The translations under genes and the position numbers were made by a program. Below are positions 8,346 to 64,000 of a DNA stretch of 64,000 bases, piece after piece. Within the stretch, counting starts at the first letter, position 1. Each line of letters starts with the position of its first letter. The stretch is taken from positions 3,226,264 to 3,290,263 of the forward strand of contig NZ_JAFN01000001.1 in assembly GCF_000526155.1 (NCBI RefSeq), in the 5' to 3' direction. The DNA comes from Deferrisoma camini S3R1 (GTDB lineage: Bacteria; Desulfobacterota; Deferrisomatia; Deferrisomatales; Deferrisomataceae). Under the pieces are notes generated by a model. That model had not been told where the DNA came from and searched no databases. It saw only the letters and a list, made by a program, of their open reading frames with translations.

Positions 8346-9090
8346 ACCAGCGCGGGAATGTCCGCGGAGGCCGGCGCGGGGAGGCAACGCGCCCGGGTGC
8401 CGCGGGCGATCCCCTGATCCCGAAGCACGGCGGCTACCGGAAGCTGAAGAGCTTTCAGGTGGCGCAGCTCATCTACGACGTGACCGTCCGGTTCTGCGAT
8501 CTTTACATCGAACGCCGGAGCCGCACGCGCGACCAGATGGTGCAGGCGGCGCGGTCGGGAACCCAGAACATCGCCGAGGGCTCGGTGGCCTCGGGCACCT
8601 CGAAGAAGATGGAGCTGAAGCTCACACAGGTTGCCCGTGCGAGCTTGGAGGAACTGCGGCTCGACTACGAGGACTTTTTGCGCCAGCGGGAGCTGCCCAA
8701 GCTGGAGCCGAACCATCCGGCGCTGGTGCGGTTCAAGGCGTCGAGGCCCCGCACGTTGGACGAGGTGCGGGCGTGGGTGGCGGAGGAGCGGCGAAGGGCG
8801 ATTCAGGCCGACAAAAGCGACACGGACGAGCACGGACGCTCAAGGACCCGCGCCGGCGCGACGACAAGCGGCGAAGGTCCCGGCGGAGCGTCCGTGTCCG
8901 TCCATGAGGGTCCGTGCGGGCCCCTGCCTTCGGCTTGTCTGGTGGCCAATGCCGCGCTGTCGCTGCTGAACCTGGCTTGCCATCTCCTGGACCGGCAGGT
9001 CGAGCGGCTGGCGCGGGATTTCGAGCGGGAGGGCGGTTTTACGGAGCGTCTCTACCGGCACAGGAAGCGGGCGCAACGGCGGAGCAGGCC

Positions 9091-9094
<4 letters not shown>
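8342..9094 (+). CDS. Four-helix-bundle suffix-domain protein inside the hsd operon
   Basis: A 250-residue protein of the four-helix-bundle (S23/IVP-like) group with the longer suffix arrangement. The core has [57 protein letters not shown] and [20 protein letters not shown]. The C-terminal helix pair is [20 protein letters not shown]. The two helical parts are separated by a 35-residue low-complexity linker encoded by an inverted repeat (8818-8912). The protein is coupled to hsdS and hsdR by 4-nt overlaps at both ends. Function is unknown; related bundles occur in rRNA intervening sequences and as the Avd protein of diversity-generating retroelements, but no reverse transcriptase is present here. 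Confidence 0.8.
8831..8896. repeat. In-frame inverted repeat within the four-helix-bundle gene
   Basis: CACGGACGCTC at 8831-8841 pairs perfectly with GAGCGTCCGTG at 8886-8896 across a 44-nt centre. Weaker complementarity continues outward (GGACACGG-like words on both sides, 8818-8912). It keeps the reading frame and encodes the linker between the two helical parts. Confidence 0.75.
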
Positions 9095-12306
<3,212 letters not shown>

Positions 12307-21709: not shown

Positions 21710-21730
21710 TTGGTCCGGGGCTCATTGCCG

Positions 21731-21895
21731 GCGGCGGGGCATGGGATTCAGGAACCAGATTTCAGCGGACAGAAGACAGGAACTCCCGAAAAGCAGTTTG
21801 GGTTCCTGCGGGGATCGTCTCGGGGCACCGAAGAGCCTTCTCCCTGTCCACTGACTTCTGAATTCTGGTCCCTGGTCCCCATGCCCCCCGGACCG
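21731..21895 (+). repeat. Intergenic repeat family A, subtype A2, copy 1
   Basis: An imperfect inverted repeat. The left arm contains CAGGAACCAGATTTCAGCGG, the right arm TCCACTGACTTCTGAATTC, and a 65-bp core carries CCCGAAAAGCAGTTTGGG. A second copy in the opposite orientation is at 61751-61890. The remaining sequence between here and 21957 shows no gene. Confidence 0.8.
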
Positions 21896-25629: not shown

Positions 25630-25783
25630 GGGAGACCCTCCGGAGCGGGAAACGTCGGCCCGCCAAAAAGTACCCGTTTCGCTAGGTTTTGCAACCCCTG
25701 CGCTTGACTCGCCCGGCCCGCGCCCTTATGTAGGGGCGGCCCAGCCGCCTAGCGGGCCGAAGGCCCAAACCGGGGCCATTGCC

Positions 25784-25954
25784 GGCGGCGGGGCAGGGGG
25801 TTCAGGAACCGGAATTCAGCGGACAGGAGACAGGGAAGGAACGACAGGCTTGATCCGGCGTCCGACGGCATGCGGTCACAACCTGTCCACTGAAATTCTG
25901 TCTTCTGCCCCCTGATTCGCAGACCCCATGCCCCCGAGCTTTGGTGGGGCCCGG
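25784..25954 (+). repeat. Intergenic repeat family A, subtype A1, copy 1
   Basis: Nearly identical, base for base, to 41222-41392 across about 170 bp, and then onward through module B. The left arm carries CAGGAACCGGAATTCAGCGG and the right arm CCTGTCCACTGAAATTCTG, which are near complements. The core contains GATCCGGCGTCCGACGGCAT. It fills the divergent space between the acyl-CoA synthetase and dnaJ together with module B. 25680-25783 holds only a partial B-like tract. Confidence 0.9.
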
Positions 25955-26030
25955 GAGCCGCCTAGCCGCCTAGCTGCCTAGCGGGCCGAAGGCCCCAGAC
26001 CAACGACCAGCGACCAGCGACCGAAGTTAC
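25955..26030 (+). repeat. Short-period module B before dnaJ
   Basis: Period-8 units (GCCGCCTA, GCCGCCTA, GCTGCCTA), then CGGGCCGAAGGCCCC, then period-7 units (GACCAAC, GACCAGC, GACCAGC) ending CGAAGTTAC, 12 bp before the dnaJ ATG. Confidence 0.85.
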
Positions 26031-26042
26031 AAGGACCGATCC

Positions 26043-27185
26043 ATGGGCAAGGACTACTACGAGATCCTCGGGGTCGCCCGGGGGGCCAGCACCGACGAGA
26101 TCAAGAAGGCCTACCGGAAGATGGCCCTCAAGTACCACCCCGACCGGAACCCGGGGGACAAGGAGGCCGAGGAGCGGTTCAAGCTGTGCGCCGAGGCCTA
26201 CGAGGTCCTGTCCGATCCCGAGAAGCGGCGGCTCTACGACGCCTACGGCGAGGAGGGCCTGAGCTCCCGGGGCGTGCACCACGGGTTCCGGGGGTTCGAG
26301 GACATCTTCTCGGCCTTCCAGGACATCTTCGGCGACCTGGGGTTCGACCTGGGGTTCGGCGGCGGCCGGGGCCGGACGCGGGTGCGTCGGGGCCGGGACC
26401 TGCGCCACGAGATGACCGTGAGCCTGGCCGAGGTGATCCGGGGCGGCACCCGCAAGATCAAGGTGCGCAAGCCCGCCCCCTGCGGGGAGTGCGGGGGCAC
26501 CGGAGCGGCCGCGCCCGAGGACGTGCGGCCGTGTCCCACCTGTCAGGGCCGGGGCATGGTGCTCCAGGTGGTGCGCCAGGGGTTCACCACGATCCAGTCC
26601 ACCACGCCGTGCCCCGACTGCCGGGGCGCCGGCCGGCGGGTGGAGCGGCCCTGCCCCGCGTGCGACGGCGCGGGCACGGCCCAGGTGGAGCGGGTGGTGG
26701 AGGTGCGGATCCCGCCCGGGGTGGAGGACGGGCAGCAGATCCGGGTGGAGGGCGCGGGCGAGGAGGTTCCCGGCGGGGTGCCCGGCGACCTCTACATCCG
26801 GCTGCGCGAGGAGGAGCACCCCCTGTACGAGCGCCGGGGCGCGGACCTGTTCGCCCCCCTGCGCGTGGACCTGCTGACCGCGATCGAGGGGGGCGAAGTG
26901 GAGGTGGAGGGGCCCGACGGCGAGCCGCTTCGGGTACGGATCGACAAGGAGGTGCAGTCCGGCACGGTGAAGGTGCTCCGGGGCGGGGGGGTGCCGGTGC
27001 TCGGCCACCCGGGCATGCGGGGAAACCTGTACTTCCAGGTGTGGGTGGCCACCCCCACCGGGCTCACGAGGGAGCAGAAGGAGGCTCTGCGGGCGGCCCT
27101 GTCCGGCACGGGGTCCGCGGCCGGGCCCGAGCACCACGGTGGGTGGAAGGACTGGGTCCGGGCCTTCTTCGGCGGCGAGAGGTGA
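26043..27185 (+). CDS. dnaJ: Chaperone DnaJ
   Basis: The 380-residue class I J-protein stimulates the DnaK ATPase and delivers unfolded clients. It has a J-domain (1-70) with HPD at 32-34, a Gly/Phe-rich segment, four zinc-binding CXXCXGXG-type repeats ([32 protein letters not shown]), client-binding beta domains and a C-terminal dimerisation tail. All zinc Cys are present. It is not next to dnaK or grpE here, so it may be a second DnaJ. Its leader consists of repeat modules A1 and B. Confidence 0.95.
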
Positions 27186-27189
27186 GGGC

Positions 27190-29952
27190 TCAGGCCGGCT
27201 CGGCCACGACCCGGTCGAGGGCGTCGACCAGACGCTGGAGCCGGTAGGGCTTGGGCAGGAACTCGGCCGCGCCCTGTTCGATCAGCCGCCGGATCCGGGC
27301 CCGGTCGGCATAGCCCGACACCACCACGATGCGGGGCGTCGGGGTCCGGGTGAGCAGCTCCGCCATGCACCGCTCCCCTCCCATGCCGGGCATGCCCAGG
27401 TCGAGCACCACGGCCTTGACCCCGGGATGCCACCGCTCGATGCATTCCTCCCCCGTGGACGCGGCGATCACGTCCCACCCGCGCTCGCTCAGGAAGTCCA
27501 CCACCATCTCCCGGATGGGCTCCTCGTCGTCCACCACCATCACGGTGCCCCGTCGGGCCGGGGCGGGGGCTGCCGCCTCCCGGGGGGGCTCGGGTTCGGG
27601 CTCGTCGGCGTGGTGCCGGCACCGGGGCAGCAGCACCGTGAACGAGGTGCCCTCGCCGGGGCTGCTCCGGCAGGAGATGTGGCCGCCGTGGGCCTGGACG
27701 ATGCCGTAGACCGTGGCCAGGCCCAAGCCGGTACCGGCGCCCACCTCCTTGGTGGTGAAGAACGGGTCGAAGATCTGGGCCAGGGTCTCGTCGTCCATGC
27801 CCCGGCCCGTGTCCGACACGGTCAGACGCACCCAGTCCTCCGGCGGCTCTTCGCCGGGGGCGTGTTCGGCCACGTCCTCCGGCCGGGCCGGGCCGGTCTC
27901 GATGGTGAGGACCCCCCCTCCGGGCATGGCGTCGCTCGCGTTCAGGGCCAGGTTCACGAGCACCTGCTCGATCTGGGCCGGATCGGCGCGCACCGGCGGC
28001 AGATCGCCCCCCAGCATCGTGCGGATCTCGATCATCCGGGGCAGGGTGCCCCGGAGCACCTCCACGATCTGCCGGACCTCGTGGTTCAGGTCCACCGGCC
28101 GCAGGCGGGACTCCACCTCACGGCTGAACGTGAGCAACTGGGAGGTGAGCCGGGTGCCCCGCCGGCAGGCCTGGACGATCCGGGCCACGCGGCGGCCCAG
28201 GGCCGGGTCGGCCCCAAGGGCCGCGTCCAGCAGGTCGGCCTGGCCCTGCACGATCTGGAGCAGGTTGCGGAACTCGTGGGCGATGCCCCCCGCCAGGGTG
28301 CCCACCGCCTCGAGCCGCTGGGCGTGACGGAGCCGCTCCTCCAGCCGGTGGCGCTCGGTGAGATCGTGGAGCACCAGGAGCACGGCGGGCCGTTGGCCCA
28401 GCAGGAGGCGCTGCCCTGCCACCTCCACCGGCACCTCGGCGCCGTCCGGGCGGAGGATGCGGGTCTCGGCAGGGCCGAAACGGGCGGCCCCCTGGAGGGC
28501 CTGGGCCCACAGGGCCTTGCCCTCGGCGTCGGCCCACAGGGGGGCCACCGTGCCGCCGGTGAGGCGGACCTCCGGCCACCCGGTCAGGCGGCTGGCCGCC
28601 GGGTTGGCCTCGCGGATGGTGCCGGTCTCGGCGTCCACCACCAAGATCGCGTCGGGCGCGGCCGCGAACAGGGCCCGGTACCGGGCCTCGCTCTCCCGGA
28701 GGGCCGCCTCGACCCGGCGCCGCTCCTCGATCTCCCTCGACAGCCGCTCGTTGGTCCGCTCCAGCTCTTTGGTGCGCTCCTGCACCAGCTCCTCGAGCCG
28801 GGTGCGGTACCGGGCCAGCTCGGCGTCCCTGCGGCGGTGCTCGGTCACGTCCCGGTAGATCACGATGTCGCCCGCGATGTTGCCGTCCTCGTCCCGCACC
28901 AGGGCGGTGTGGAGCTCGATGTCCAGGACCCGGCCGTCCTTGGTGAACCGGCGGGTGTCCAGGAGCACGCTCTCCCCGGCCAGGGTGCGTGCGACGGCGT
29001 CGCGGGTGCGCTCGGCCTCCTCCGGGGGCACGAAGTCGATGCCCTTGCCCTGGAGCTCCTCCAGGGTCCAGCCGAAGGTCCGGGTGAACGCCGGGTTCAC
29101 GTACACCACCTTGCCGTCGGCCGAGTACACGCTGATGGCGTCGGGCGAGGCGTCCATCAGCAGCCGGTACCGGGCGCGGGTCTCCCTCAGCTCGGCCAGG
29201 GCCCGGCGCTTGGCCGTGAGGTCGCGGTAGATGACGATGTCGGCCGTGATGTTGCCGTCCGGGTCCCGGATCACGGCCGTGCGCAGCTGGATGTCCAGGA
29301 CCCGGCCGTCCTTGGTGAGGCGGCGGGTGTCCAGGAGAACGCTCGCGCCGGCCAGGGTGCGCGCGACGGCGTCGCGGGTGCGCTCGGCCTCCTCCGGGGG
29401 CACGAAGTCGATGCCCCGGCCCCGGAGCTCCTCCAAGGTCCAGCCGAAGGTCTGGGTGAAGGCGGGGTTCACGTACAGCACCCGGCCCTCGGGGGAGTAC
29501 ACGCTGATGGGGTCGGGCGAGGCCTCGAGGAGCTGCTGGTAGCGGTGCTCGCTGCGGGCCGCCTCGCGTTCCCGCTCCCGCAGCTCGCTCAGGTCGCGGT
29601 GGATGACGTAGATGCCCTCCACCCGGCCGTCGGGGGCCCGGGCCGTGACGGCCCGGATCTCCACCTCGAGCACCCTGCCGTCCTTGGTGAGGCGGCGGGT
29701 GGGGAAGGTGACCTCGCCCTCGAGCAGGGTGCGCTGGATGGCCCGCCGGGTCGGGCCCTTTTCCTCGGGCGGCACGAAGTCCACCCGCCTTCCCATCCAC
29801 TCCTCCCGGGACCACCCGTACACCTGCTCGAACGCCCGGTTCAGGAACCGGACCCGGCCCTTGGGGTCGTAGAACACGAACGGGTCCGGGTACCCCTCGA
29901 TCAGGCGGAGCACGTCCGGGTCGTCCGGTTGGAAGGGGCCGGGCGGGGGCAT
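27190..29952 (-). CDS. Multi-PAS hybrid sensor histidine kinase with C-terminal receiver
   Basis: A 920-residue cytoplasmic sensor with no transmembrane segment. Order: PAS1 (about 12-125), PAS2 (140-250), PAS3 (262-375), coiled coil (385-425, [20 protein letters not shown]), PAS4 (430-535), HisKA with the phospho-His in [20 protein letters not shown] (near 554), HATPase ([20 protein letters not shown], then [19 protein letters not shown]) and REC with Asp near 847 ([12 protein letters not shown]). PAS2 and PAS3 are near-duplicates. No response regulator gene is adjacent, so phosphotransfer partners are unlinked. It lies beside pilT on the same strand. Confidence 0.94.
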
Positions 29953-29967
29953 GGCGAAACCTCTGGG

Positions 29968-31065
29968 TCAGTCGGGTAGGGCTCCCCCGGAGTTCAAGAG
30001 GACCGCCCGTTCGAAGTCCGAGGGGTTGGTGGCGGCCGACCGGGCCGTCTCGAACGAGATCACCCCCCGGGCGTACAGGTCCATCAGGTGCTGGTCGAAG
30101 CTCTGGGTGCCGTAGGTGTCGCGGCCGGCCTCGAGCACGTCCTTGATCTCGTGGGTCTTCAACGGATCCTTGATGCACTCTTCGATGTGCTTGGTCATCC
30201 GCAGGATCTCCAGGGCGGCCACCCGGCCCCGGCCGTCCTTGCGGGGCAGGAGCCGCTGGCTCACCGTGGCCTTGAGGTTTTCGGCCAGCCGGATCCGCAC
30301 CATGTTCTGCTCGGCCGAGGGGAACACGCTGATCAGGCGGCCCACGGTCTTGGCGGCGTCGGTGGTGTGGACCGTGCTGAACACCAGGTGCCCCGTCTCG
30401 GCCGCCCTCAGGGCGATGTCGATCGTCTCGGTGTCGCGCATCTCGCCGACCAGGATGATGTCCGGGTCCTGGCGCAGCGCCGCCCGGAGGGCCTTGTTGA
30501 AGTTGGGGGTGTCGAGCCCGATCTCCCGCTGGCTCACCGAGCTCCTCTTGTTCTTGTGGATGAACTCGATGGGATCCTCGATGGTGAGGATGTGGCACCG
30601 CTTGTGCTCGTTGATGTGGTCGATGAGCGCGGCCAGGGTGGAGCTCTTCCCGCTGCCCGTGACCCCGGTGATCAGCACCAGCCCCCGCTCCTCCAGGGCG
30701 ATCTGCTTGAGCACCGGGGGGAGCCCCAGCCCCTCGAGGGTGGGGACCTCGAACGGGATCACCCGCAGGATCACGGCGAAGGTGTTGCGCTGGCGGTACA
30801 CGTTGACCCGGAACCGACCTACGCCGTTCACCGAGTACGATCCGTCCCACTCCCGGATCTTCTCCACGTCCACCGGGGGGTGGGCCCCCCCCACGATGGC
30901 CTCCACCACGGCCCGGGTGTCCTGGGGCGTGAGCAGGGGGCTCTTCACCTCCTGGAGCACCCCGTTCACCCGGAACAGCACCGGGGTGTTCACCTTGAGA
31001 TGGATGTCGCTGGCCCCGGCCTTCATGGCCGCGGCCAACACTTTGTGAAAGGTGTCTCGCTCCAT
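29968..31065 (-). CDS. pilT: Type IV pilus retraction ATPase PilT
   Basis: The 365-residue hexameric ATPase powers pilus retraction in twitching motility. It shows Walker A ITGVTGSGKSSTLAALIDHI, the Asp box ILTIEDPIEFIHKNKRS, Walker B QDPDIILVGEMRDTETI, His box ETGHLVFSTVHTTDAAKTV and the PilT-like tail AATNPSDFERAV. The start at 31065 matches the family N-terminus (MERDTFHKVLAAAMKAGASD). A C-terminal extension of about 15 residues (LLNSGGALPD) is present. The histidine kinase follows 16 bp downstream. Confidence 0.93.
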   Translation of the reverse strand: MERDTFHKVLAAAMKAGASDIHLKVNTPVLFRVNGVLQEVKSPLLTPQDTRAVVEAIVGGAHPPVDVEKIREWDGSYSVNGVGRFRVNVYRQRNTFAVILRVIPFEVPTLEGLGLPPVLKQIALEERGLVLITGVTGSGKSSTLAALIDHINEHKRCHILTIEDPIEFIHKNKRSSVSQREIGLDTPNFNKALRAALRQDPDIILVGEMRDTETIDIALRAAETGHLVFSTVHTTDAAKTVGRLISVFPSAEQNMVRIRLAENLKATVSQRLLPRKDGRGRVAALEILRMTKHIEECIKDPLKTHEIKDVLEAGRDTYGTQSFDQHLMDLYARGVISFETARSAATNPSDFERAVLLNSGGALPD

Positions 31066-33435: not shown

Positions 33436-33630
33436 CGGTGGGGCAGGGGGGCTGCTGGAGAGCCGCGTGCGGCTCCTCAGTTCGCCGCGCAGCGCCTCCA
33501 ACGCTCGTACCGTGAGTTCTGTTCGTGCCGCACCGAACGGTCATGAAACCACCGCCCGTGCCCCGTGCCTGGCGGCGAATCTCAATGCCCGGCTTCGCGC
33601 GCGGCCGGAAGCAGGCCCCCTGCCCCACCG
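33436..33630 (+). repeat. Structured intergenic repeat family C, copy 1
   Basis: A 195-bp inverted structure. The left arm GGTGGGGCAGGGGGGCTGCT pairs with the right arm AGCAGGCCCCCTGCCCCACC. Internally TTCGCCGC pairs with GCGGCGAA, and GCGCAGCGCCTCCAACGCTC and GCCCGGCTTCGCGC are shared with the other copies at 36310, 40269, 48836 and 61896. No reading frame is conserved among copies. Confidence 0.88.
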
Positions 33631-35052: not shown

Positions 35053-35143
35053 TGCCAAGTCGCGTTCCAAGCCGTTGGCCCCGTGAGCAGCGGGGCAAGG
35101 GACCCGCCCTAGGGGGGCTCTCGGTTTGAACGCAACTCGGGAT
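35052..35143. repeat. Inverted-repeat element D, copy 2
   Basis: A 92-bp element with imperfect inverted ends, ATGCCAAGTCGCGTTCC and TTGAACGCAACTCGGGAT. The interior contains GCGGGGCAAGGGACCCGCC, which is also the C-family arm sequence. It begins at the stop codon of the preceding gene. Confidence 0.75.
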
Positions 35144-36259: not shown

Positions 36260-36309
36260 GGGGGGCTTTATGGAACCGGCGGACAAACAGGCACATCGCT
36301 CCCTGCTCG

Positions 36310-36501
36310 GAGGGACAAGGGACCTGCCGGAGAGCCGGGCGCGGCCCCTTAGCTCGCCGCGCAGCGCCTCTGACGCTCGGACTGCGAAAGGGTGCGGATT
36401 CCAACGAGTTGCCATGAAGCCAGCTCCCCCGCCCCGTGCCTGCGCGGCGAATCTCATGCCCGGCTTCGCGCCCGGCCGGAGGCAGGTCCCTTGCCCCGCC
36501 T
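36310..36501 (+). repeat. Structured intergenic repeat family C, copy 2
   Basis: Left arm GGGACAAGGGACCTGCC, right arm GGCAGGTCCCTTGCCCC. The core has TCGCCGCGCAGCGCCTC and GCGCGGCGAATCTCATGCCC, matching copy 1. It lies between the 3' ends of two convergent genes. Confidence 0.88.
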
Positions 36502-36538
36502 TCCGGGGTGAGGCGGCCATCTTGTCGCCGGGCTGAGC

Positions 36539-40122: not shown

Positions 40123-40268
40123 GGTGCACCTCCTTTCCCCCCGGGCTCGGTGGGGTCCTGCCCCTTCAACCTAGCGCGGCGGCAGGGGGTTCGGAAGGTG
40201 GGGGCATGGGTTTTTCCGGCTTCGCACCCGGCGCTCCAGCAGCCCCCCATGCCGCACCGAGCGTTTGG

Positions 40269-40462
40269 CGGCGGGGCATGGGGCCTGCTTCCGGCCGCGC
40301 GCGAAGCCGGACATTGAGATTCGCCGCGCAGGCACGGAGCACCGGCGGTGGTTTCATGGCCGGTCGGTGGGGCACGAACGAGCTCACGGTACGAGCGTTG
40401 GAGGCGCTGCGCGGCGAGCCAAGGAGCCGCACGCGGCGCTCCAGCAGACCCCATGCCCCCCG
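40269..40462 (-). repeat. Structured intergenic repeat family C, copy 3
   Basis: Opposite orientation to copies 1 and 2. Outer arms GGGGCATGGGGCCTGCT and AGCAGACCCCATGCCCC. The core carries the reverse complement of the copy-1 words, for example GAGATTCGCCGCGCAGGCAC and GCGTTGGAGGCGCTGCGCGG. With the B tract it fills the divergent space before folK; 40123-40268 shows no further feature. Confidence 0.88.
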
Positions 40463-41202: not shown

Positions 41203-41221
41203 TGATCCGGGGGCCACGGCT

Positions 41222-41392
41222 GGCGGCGGGGCAGGGGTTTCAGGAACCGGAATTCAGCGGACAGGAGACAGGGAAGGAACGACAGGCTTGATCCGGCGTC
41301 CGACGGCATGCGGTCACAACCTGTCCACTGAAATTCTGTCTTCTGCCCCCTGATTCGCAGACCCCATGCCCCCGAGCTTTGGTGGGGCCCGG
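41222..41392 (+). repeat. Intergenic repeat family A, subtype A1, copy 2
   Basis: Essentially identical to 25784-25954. The alignment of the two copies, extended into the following B tract, shows one substitution near the left end and one extra 8-nt unit (CTGCCTAG) in this copy. Confidence 0.9.
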
Positions 41393-41476
41393 GAGCCGCC
41401 TAGCCGCCTAGCTGCCTAGCTGCCTAGCGGGCCGAAGACCCCCGACCGACGACCAACGACCAACGACCGAAGTTAC
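41393..41476 (+). repeat. Short-period module B before the PP0621-like gene
   Basis: Four period-8 units ending CTAGCGGGCCGAAGACCCCC, then GACCGAC GACCAAC GACCAAC GACCGAAGTTAC, 14 bp before the TTG start at 41491. Confidence 0.85.
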
Positions 41477-48835: not shown

Positions 48836-48948
48836 GGAGGCGGGGCAAGGGACCCGCCTCCGGCCGAGCGCGAAGCCGGAAACTGAGATTCGCCGCGCGG
48901 CGAGCGAAGGGGCCGCGCCCGGCTCTCCGGCGGGTGCCTTGCCTCCCG
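48836..48948 (-). repeat. Structured intergenic repeat family C, copy 4 (short form)
   Basis: A 113-bp copy lacking the central part. Outer arms GGGGCAAGGGACCCGCC and GGCGGGTGCCTTGCCTC, inner words CGCGAAGCCGGAAACTGAG and ATTCGCCGCGCGG. It is inserted between rplY and pth. Confidence 0.85.
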
Positions 48949-60674: not shown

Positions 60675-60772
60675 ATACCAAGTTGCATTCAGAGCTATCG
60701 GACCCCTGAAGCGGGGGGCAAGGGGCCTGGTTCCGGCCCTCGATGGATCTTTGTTTGAACGCAACTTGGTAT
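60675..60772. repeat. Inverted-repeat element D, copy 1
   Basis: A 98-bp element. ATACCAAGTTGCATTCA at the left and TTGAACGCAACTTGGTAT at the right are near-perfect inverted ends. The interior has GGGGGGCAAGGGGCCTGGTT, again a C-type arm. Its right end coincides with the stop codon of the minus-strand radical SAM gene. Confidence 0.85.
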
Positions 60773-61895: not shown

Positions 61896-62089
61896 GTGCG
61901 GGGTGGGGGTCTGGTGGAGCGCCGGGTGCGGCCCCTTAGCTCGCCGCGCCCCCCGAACGCCCGGATCCCCTCCGGATTCCGAGAGTTCCGCTATCGTGGC
62001 CTGGATCGACGCGTAAGCGGCGGCATGAGAAGGCGCGGCGATCGGATGCCGCACTCGCGCCCGGCCGGAACCAGGCCCCCACCCCGCAC
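61896..62089 (+). repeat. Structured intergenic repeat family C, copy 5
   Basis: Outer arms GTGCGGGGTGGGGGTCTGGT and ACCAGGCCCCCACCCCGCAC. Conserved core words are GCGGCCCCTTAGCTCGCCGC and CTCGCGCCCGGCCGGAA. The centre is diverged from copies 1-3. Confidence 0.82.
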
Positions 62090-62120
62090 CCCGCACCCTG
62101 GCAATACGTTTGCAGGTCTT

Positions 62121-62168
62121 AGTACCTTCCCCGTTGTAGGGCCCCGCAGGGGCCTGATGGAGCTTCCC
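62121..62168 (-). repeat. Intergenic repeat module E, copy 4
   Basis: On the minus strand GGGAAGCTCCATCAGGCCCC, TGCGGGG, CCCTACAACGGGGAAGGTAC. It begins 9 bp after the CoA-transferase beta stop. Confidence 0.82.
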
Positions 62169-62952: not shown

Positions 62953-63879
62953 TCAGTACCCGAAGTCCGCGGCCACGGTGTACGCGTGGTCCCGCACGGC
63001 CAGGGCCTCGAGCCGTCCCGCGGCCCGCAGCCGCTCCACGTACTCGGTGTGGTCGGCCAGGCCGGTGACCCACTCGTCCAGCCAGGCCTCAAACCCCTCC
63101 CGGGTCCGGCTGGCCCGGTGGTACTCCCGGTAGAACCCGTGGTCCCGGTTGGTGTACCCCTGGCAGGGGGAGGGGTGGCTGCCCCACCGGGCCTCCACCA
63201 CGGCGCTCACCCGGAACCCCGGGATCAGGGTGCGGTTGGGGTCGCTGGCGATCACCCAGGGCGGCACGATCTCCTCGGCCACCACGAGCACCCGGTCGGC
63301 CGCGAACGCGGCCTCCTGGGTCACCCCCAGGTTGCCCCAGGCGTGGGCGTTGCCCCGGGCGTCGGCCCGCTGCACGTGGAGTACGGCCACGTCGGGCTCG
63401 ATGGCCCGCACCGCCACCAGGGGCTCGCCCGTGAACGGGCAGCGGGTCGGGACGAGACCTGGGTTGCGCTCGAGCAGGCTGCTCCCCAGGGCCGTGCGGG
63501 TGGGCAGGTACGGCAGGCCCTGACTGGCGGCCTTGAGCCCGGTCTGGATCGTGAAGTTGGTGTGATCCACCACCTCCAGGGGCCGGGGCTCCCCCCGCTC
63601 CACGGCCCGCCGGAAGTTGTACCCCGACCCCATCATCACGTTGCCCACCCAGGCCGCCTCCACCCGGGCCACGGCCCCGGCCCCGATCAGCACGTCGAAC
63701 AGCATGTCCGAGATGGGGCCGATCAGGGTGAGATCTCCGATGCCCTGGCGCACCATCTCGTAGCCCACCGCGAACGGGATCAGGGACTCCAGGGCCGCGC
63801 CCATGACCACCCGGTCCCCCGGGTGGACGAACAGCCCCACCGCTTCCTTCAGGGTGTAGATCTTCGTCTCCATGCTCAT
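62953..63879 (-). CDS. CoA-transferase alpha subunit (glutaconate CoA-transferase-like)
   Basis: A 308-residue subunit: IYTLKEAVGLFVHPGDRVVM, GLPYLPTRTALGSSLLERNP, RCPFTGEPLVAVRAIEPDVA and VLHVQRADARGNAHAWGNLG are family segments. It forms an alpha/beta pair with the downstream gene. The start (ATG 63879, or 63873) lies at the very end of an inverted-repeat D element, so its leader is repeat DNA and no clear ribosome binding site is visible. Confidence 0.92.
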   Translation of the reverse strand: MSMETKIYTLKEAVGLFVHPGDRVVMGAALESLIPFAVGYEMVRQGIGDLTLIGPISDMLFDVLIGAGAVARVEAAWVGNVMMGSGYNFRRAVERGEPRPLEVVDHTNFTIQTGLKAASQGLPYLPTRTALGSSLLERNPGLVPTRCPFTGEPLVAVRAIEPDVAVLHVQRADARGNAHAWGNLGVTQEAAFAADRVLVVAEEIVPPWVIASDPNRTLIPGFRVSAVVEARWGSHPSPCQGYTNRDHGFYREYHRASRTREGFEAWLDEWVTGLADHTEYVERLRAAGRLEALAVRDHAYTVAADFGY

Positions 63880-64000
63880 ACCAGGTCGCATTCGAAGCCA
63901 GCGATTTGGGGGCCGTTGGACCGGAGCGCTACGGCCGAGCCGTTCAAGCCGCTCGGCGCAGGGGGGCGCCCGCGGCGCGTGCTCTCACGCGCCGCAGCGG
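63877..64000. repeat. Element D, copy 3 (left half; right end outside the window)
   Basis: ATACCAGGTCGCATTCGAAG matches the D end sequence at 60675 and 35052. The remainder of the window (to 64000) is GC-rich and shows no gene. Confidence 0.65.

Follow-up and report, generated by a model that had tools for sequence, protein, structure and literature searches.

The dispersed repeat named family C forms the core of MITE-like units, each ~265 bp long, which carry it within at least four outer shells. Our preferred explanation, to which we assign a probability of about 60%, is that these units are RUP-like MITEs of IS630 type that are mobilised in trans and have in common a structured core, exchangeable and strand-specific. 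Elements of this kind are already known; what is new is a covarying core common to several chassis, together with its one-strand bias. An earlier note, made from the window (the whole 64,000-nucleotide stretch of DNA analysed here), had described an element of 110-195 bp; as a dispersed, covarying family this element stands, but as a mobile unit it is incomplete, being the core of larger MITE-like units.

With a covariance model derived from 31 copies, five matches to family C appear in the window (E ≤ 1e-21), just where five dispersed copies had been proposed, and all five are real. They measure ~190 bp each, except for copy 4, which is shortened to 108 bp. Copies 1 and 3 have shells of type A: copy 1 (33439-33629, plus strand), with the stem1 arms TGGGGCAGGGGGGCTGCT and AGCAGGCCCCCTGCCCCA, lies at a site whose intergenic content differs in genome G001, and copy 3 (40270-40460, minus strand) is common to the genome of the window and to G001, another repeat taking its place in G002. 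Beside copy 3, also on the minus strand, the sequence contains a minimal, internally deleted relative consisting of stem1 and stem2 only (40197-40258), to which the covariance model gives a weak match at 40145-40255. Copy 2 belongs to a full MITE-like unit with shell B1 (36271-36536, plus strand; core match at 36311-36500), the TIR of which is degenerate (ACCGGCGGACAAACAGGC ... TTGTCGCCGGGCTGA); the syntenic sites in G001 and G002 are without this copy, but the empty-site junction is imperfect, so that a loss is possible. Copy 4 (48839-48946, minus strand), in a degenerate B1 shell, owes its length to an internal deletion, since the orthologous copy in G001 has the full length. Copy 5 (61898-62089, plus strand) has shell C5, of the first IS630 type, and the right TIR of its unit (CTGGCAATACGTTTGCAGGTCTTAGTA, 62098-62124, plus strand) resembles the end of a resident IS630-family insertion sequence (IS). 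Two B2-shell mini-elements, listed without strand, are also present: in the one at 35053-35142 (TIRs 35053-35072 and 35123-35142) the core is almost gone, and in the one at 60676-60771 (TIRs 60676-60695 and 60752-60771; flanks TCA/TCA) it is truncated.

The window holds further repeats. At 63876-64000, a B2-like left end is followed by a different interior (CCAGCGATTTGGGGGCCGTTGG...), which suggests that the B2 shell has more than one cargo. The TTGCCGGCGGCGGGGCANGGG end of shell A recurs in another dispersed repeat (25772-25982, 41210-41420, and 21718-21780), whose interior, TTCAGGAACC ... GACAGG, is unrelated to family C; this repeat is the occupant of the copy 3 site in G002. Elsewhere, a unit of ~372 bp is present in three tandem copies (28832-29875) within a long open frame (27139-29979), and an HsdR-like gene of type I restriction lies at 8914-12306.

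Five copies per 64 kb would fit a few hundred genome-wide, and the element is far commoner than the five copies noted at first: the genome of the window (4.24 Mb, one contig) holds at least 150, with 150/150 scored candidates matching. In related genomes the family is present in two congeners, with at least 147 and at least 142 matches, and in one sister genus, with 59-60, the absolute copy numbers being lower bounds throughout. No copy of family C was found in the 8 other genomes of the same order that were searched, and in a DNA pattern scan of genome contigs the matches listed all came from three MAGs, one of them of the Deferrisomatales. As far as searched, family C is confined to a Deferrisoma-like genus and its sister genus. 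The Rfam 15 covariance models gave no match to it at gathering or permissive thresholds, in line with the earlier note, which knew of no described family with these words.

From the outside inward, the core consists of stem1, an internal loop with a one-base bulge, stem2, stem3, and an apical part. Stem1 comprises 18 bp, in which pairing is kept while the sequence varies, and is followed by a 3x3 internal loop, GGA/GGA, whose bases are invariant in the alignment of 31 copies on which this statement rests, counts among copies filtered on GGA/GGA being circular. Stem2 reads GCCGSGYGC and stem3 CTCGCCGCGC/GCGCGGCGA, and the apical part is variable, spanning 0-100 nt and differing wholly between subfamilies. 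In G003, minimal forms of 72-86 nt retain stem1, the loop and stem2 alone and are predicted to fold as one hairpin. The arm words that had been said to change together in each copy of the window do so, as does the variable base with its matching partner; the inner pair that had been thought to be kept is a looser affair: in copies 2-5 its left side reads CTCGCCGC, and in copy 5 its right side reads GCGGCGAT.

Covariation was measured over stem1 positions 3-18 in 238 distinct copies from four genomes, against a null in which the same substitutions were redistributed over an unchanged tree, each column keeping its rate. At the tips, Watson-Crick pairing of stem1 reaches 91.3%, versus 51-58% in the null (maximum 69%), and double changes from one Watson-Crick pair to another on the same branch number 44-58, versus ~3 in the null (maximum 11), event counts that lean on trees of recombining repeats, which are rough. 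Within subfamilies, 57 double changes are paired and 5 unpaired, with ~1.3 paired expected by chance. Shuffling the partners gave 0/500 trials that equalled the observed measures, in one genus as in the other, and sliding the structure by 1-3 columns abolishes the signal in both. Pairing itself is therefore preserved, as had been claimed, and it is so beyond the phylogenetic background. The R-scape-like check pair by pair, by G tests with the tree null, leaves only 1-2 individually significant pairs; this test is weak because a few deep subfamilies dominate and inflate the null. For the whole stem, covariation above background is established; for the individual pairs it is less so.

Matching arms could in principle be produced by mutation and not by selection, if template switching (quasipalindrome correction) copied changes from one arm across to the other. 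The great excess of paired over unpaired double changes is what such a process would give, and hairpin-type internal deletions exist in copy 4 and in the minimal forms of G003; however, the mismatched GGA/GGA loop is never perfected in the aligned copies. A second observation bears on this process. A mismatch that reads as G.T on one strand of an inverted repeat reads as A.C on its complement, and the two arms present mutation with identical sequence contexts, so a process acting on the double strand should yield the two in equal numbers. In the core stem, read on the element strand, the single changes from the subfamily consensus comprise 136 G.T and 38 A.C (3.6:1), against an expected ratio of ~1.15:1 that we calculated from the rates seen in the apical parts of the copies themselves. 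When positions are counted instead, 10 commonly show G.T and 1 commonly shows A.C (sign test), the copy counts not being independent events. The TIRs of the same B1 and B2 units, 20-60 nt away, lack the bias (G.T:A.C = 41:53), which argues against a mutation bias linked to transcription. Template switching is blind to the distinction between G.T and A.C, yet the core and the TIRs of the same units differ in exactly this respect, and we regard it as an unlikely source of the matched arms.

The excess of G.T over A.C on one strand, absent in the TIRs, favours one folded single strand over a double-strand cruciform, and thus narrows the choice between RNA and a DNA hairpin that the earlier note had left. 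Internal branches have a G.T:A.C ratio of ~27:2 and terminal branches one of 74:36 (Fisher p = 0.005). We read this as a need for propagating lineages to keep one strand foldable, inserted copies decaying nearly freely. A comparison of predicted RNA folding energy between the two strands showed no difference. One strand of the core seems to be selected to fold, probably as RNA, which is the simplest such molecule. Gene context gave little information: near the copies, where flanks are repeat-filled and gene calls few, copies tend to sit 5' of genes, but too weakly for us to build on; in the flanks of loci L001-L192, where calls are likewise few, coding calls oriented away from the element outnumber those facing it and convergent pairs are absent among the calls, which is no more than a hint.

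The folded strand might instead be single-stranded DNA, its hairpin being selected because it is recognised by a Y1/RAYT-like transposase or in lagging-strand replication, as in REPINs. Strand-specific folding is compatible with this view too, G.T being likewise the better-tolerated mismatch in single-stranded DNA, and Y1 transposase genes (PF01797) are present in 4/4 carrier genomes; such genes, however, also occur in 5/8 of the genomes of the order without the element. The RAYT genes examined in the window's own genome are in no case flanked by the element. In the units, TIRs are paired, the duplications are TA or TNA, and matches to IS630 occur; Y1 enzymes are not known to make such units. 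REPIN hairpins are palindromic and dispersed and have compensatory changes on both sides (PMC3116915). The hairpins of family C are likewise dispersed and compensatory, with a GGAG adjoining the palindrome that recalls REP anatomy, but the units are longer and, unlike REPINs, have TIRs and target duplications. Identity with REPINs or RAYT elements was rejected: the TIR-borne target duplications (3-bp TNA, TA) are of another kind, the RAYT-like genes are not flanked, and the sole arm match lies inside a coding frame (locus L036). A selected hairpin of single-stranded DNA consequently seems to us rather improbable.

Another conceivable origin is retrotransposition, in which a reverse transcriptase would have spread the core as a selfish or functional RNA. 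The RNA-like covariation and the strand bias would agree with such an origin; against it, genes with the RVT_1 domain (PF00078) are absent from G000, G001 and G003, that is, from three of the four carrier genomes, and the TIRs and duplications are of DNA-transposon type. We therefore consider retrotransposition extremely improbable, and identification of family C as a retroelement was rejected.

Two of the outer shells point instead to IS630-type transposition. Shell B1 ends in TTAACCCGGCGGATAAACAGGCGC ... GCGCCTATTTTGTCGCCGGGTTAA, shell B2 in TACCAAGTTGCRTTCAAA ... TTTGAACGCAACTTGGTA, and shell C5, which lies at TA, in CTAATACCAACG ... GGTCTTAG; shells A and A2 have other flanks, with approximate boundaries. 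Identical 3-bp flanks, mostly TNA, border 13/18 B2 units. In the case of C5, comparison of two units with the empty sites in G001 reveals clean insertions with TA at both ends, whereas at B1 units the duplications are frequently indistinct (4/14 have exact TA/TA when the TIR start is set at ACCCGG). B1 and B2 have one core subfamily in common, and chimeric units with mixed left and right shells occur, from which we infer that cores and shells recombine and that cores are exchanged. Mapped on the core tree, the B1/B2 label switches 6-11 times, less often than shuffled labels do, so this exchange appears to be occasional and not free. As a separate observation, at locus L380 (G000:C1:714500-717500) a frame of 319 aa seems to interrupt the stem of a B2-type element and is, by eye, a candidate IS110-type transposase; insertion sequences of this type are described as targeting REP palindromes (PMC1525189).

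Two resident IS630-family ISs match shells C5 and B1. The first, of 1.1 kb, has C5-type ends and is present in 3 intact copies, each bordered by TA left and right; its 346-aa frame encodes a transposase of the IS630 family (NCBIfam NF033545, 279 bits; Pfam DDE_3). The second transposase, 39% identical to the first, belongs to 3 intact IS copies at TA, with the ends TTAACCCGGYG...TAAATAGGCGC, which are B1-type (TTAACCCGG). The TIRs of both C5 and B1 shells thus resemble those of a resident IS, and mobilisation of C5 and B1 units in trans is suggested by this match. For shells B2 and A, the search turned up no autonomous partner. At L397 / L007 (G000:C1:4028623-4029645), the TA of CTTAGCTC within one family C core is occupied by a copy of the second IS630.

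Among the known systems closest to family C is RUP of Streptococcus pneumoniae, a MITE of IS630-Spn1, which is a short non-coding repeat of ~100+ copies with TIRs like those of the resident IS630-family IS, a TA target duplication, and a highly paired transcript (PMC2229807, PMC3049150). Judged by sequence, the C5 and B1 forms of family C qualify as an IS630-family MITE such as RUP. Unlike RUP, family C places one core in four or more shells, of which two match two different IS630s, and this core shows a strand bias along with compensatory changes; in the sequence comparison, which covered Rfam, no relation between the two emerged. The Correia/NEMIS elements of Neisseria also have TIRs with TA, occur in full-length and internally deleted forms, and give a long stem-loop transcript that RNase III cuts (PMC2229807). 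Family C is like them in its TIRs with TA and in having both full-length and internally deleted forms. We know of no sequence common to the two and, as far as we know, neither an internal loop nor sharing between several shells has been described for Correia/NEMIS. BOX/SPRITE and ERIC are intergenic repeats, modular or palindromic, with structured transcripts; their anatomy and hosts differ from those of family C, and we are aware of no common core spanning shells among them.

All together, these results allow us to propose that C5 or B1 units would be cut and pasted in trans by the two resident IS630-family transposases, which would recognise their TIRs, and that recombination would transfer cores between shells. 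While a lineage propagates, selection would act on its core to fold on one strand, the folded form being most likely an RNA hairpin formed upon transcription, and copies would decay once inserted. A more tentative possibility, which we put forward with considerable doubt, is that the core is a strand-specific structured RNA module in its own right, transferred by recombination between chassis that differ in their ends and transposases, and that its fold and not its sequence determines which copies spread.

Bacterial MITEs are usually viewed as passive deletion relics of insertion sequences. In family C, one folded core, with compensatory changes on one strand, recurs across differing ends and in two genera. 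Because the terminal repeats of these units are without the bias, the copies amount to a natural experiment that supplies its own control, and they make testable the long-standing question of whether a repeat hairpin is selected as RNA, selected as DNA, or a by-product of repair.
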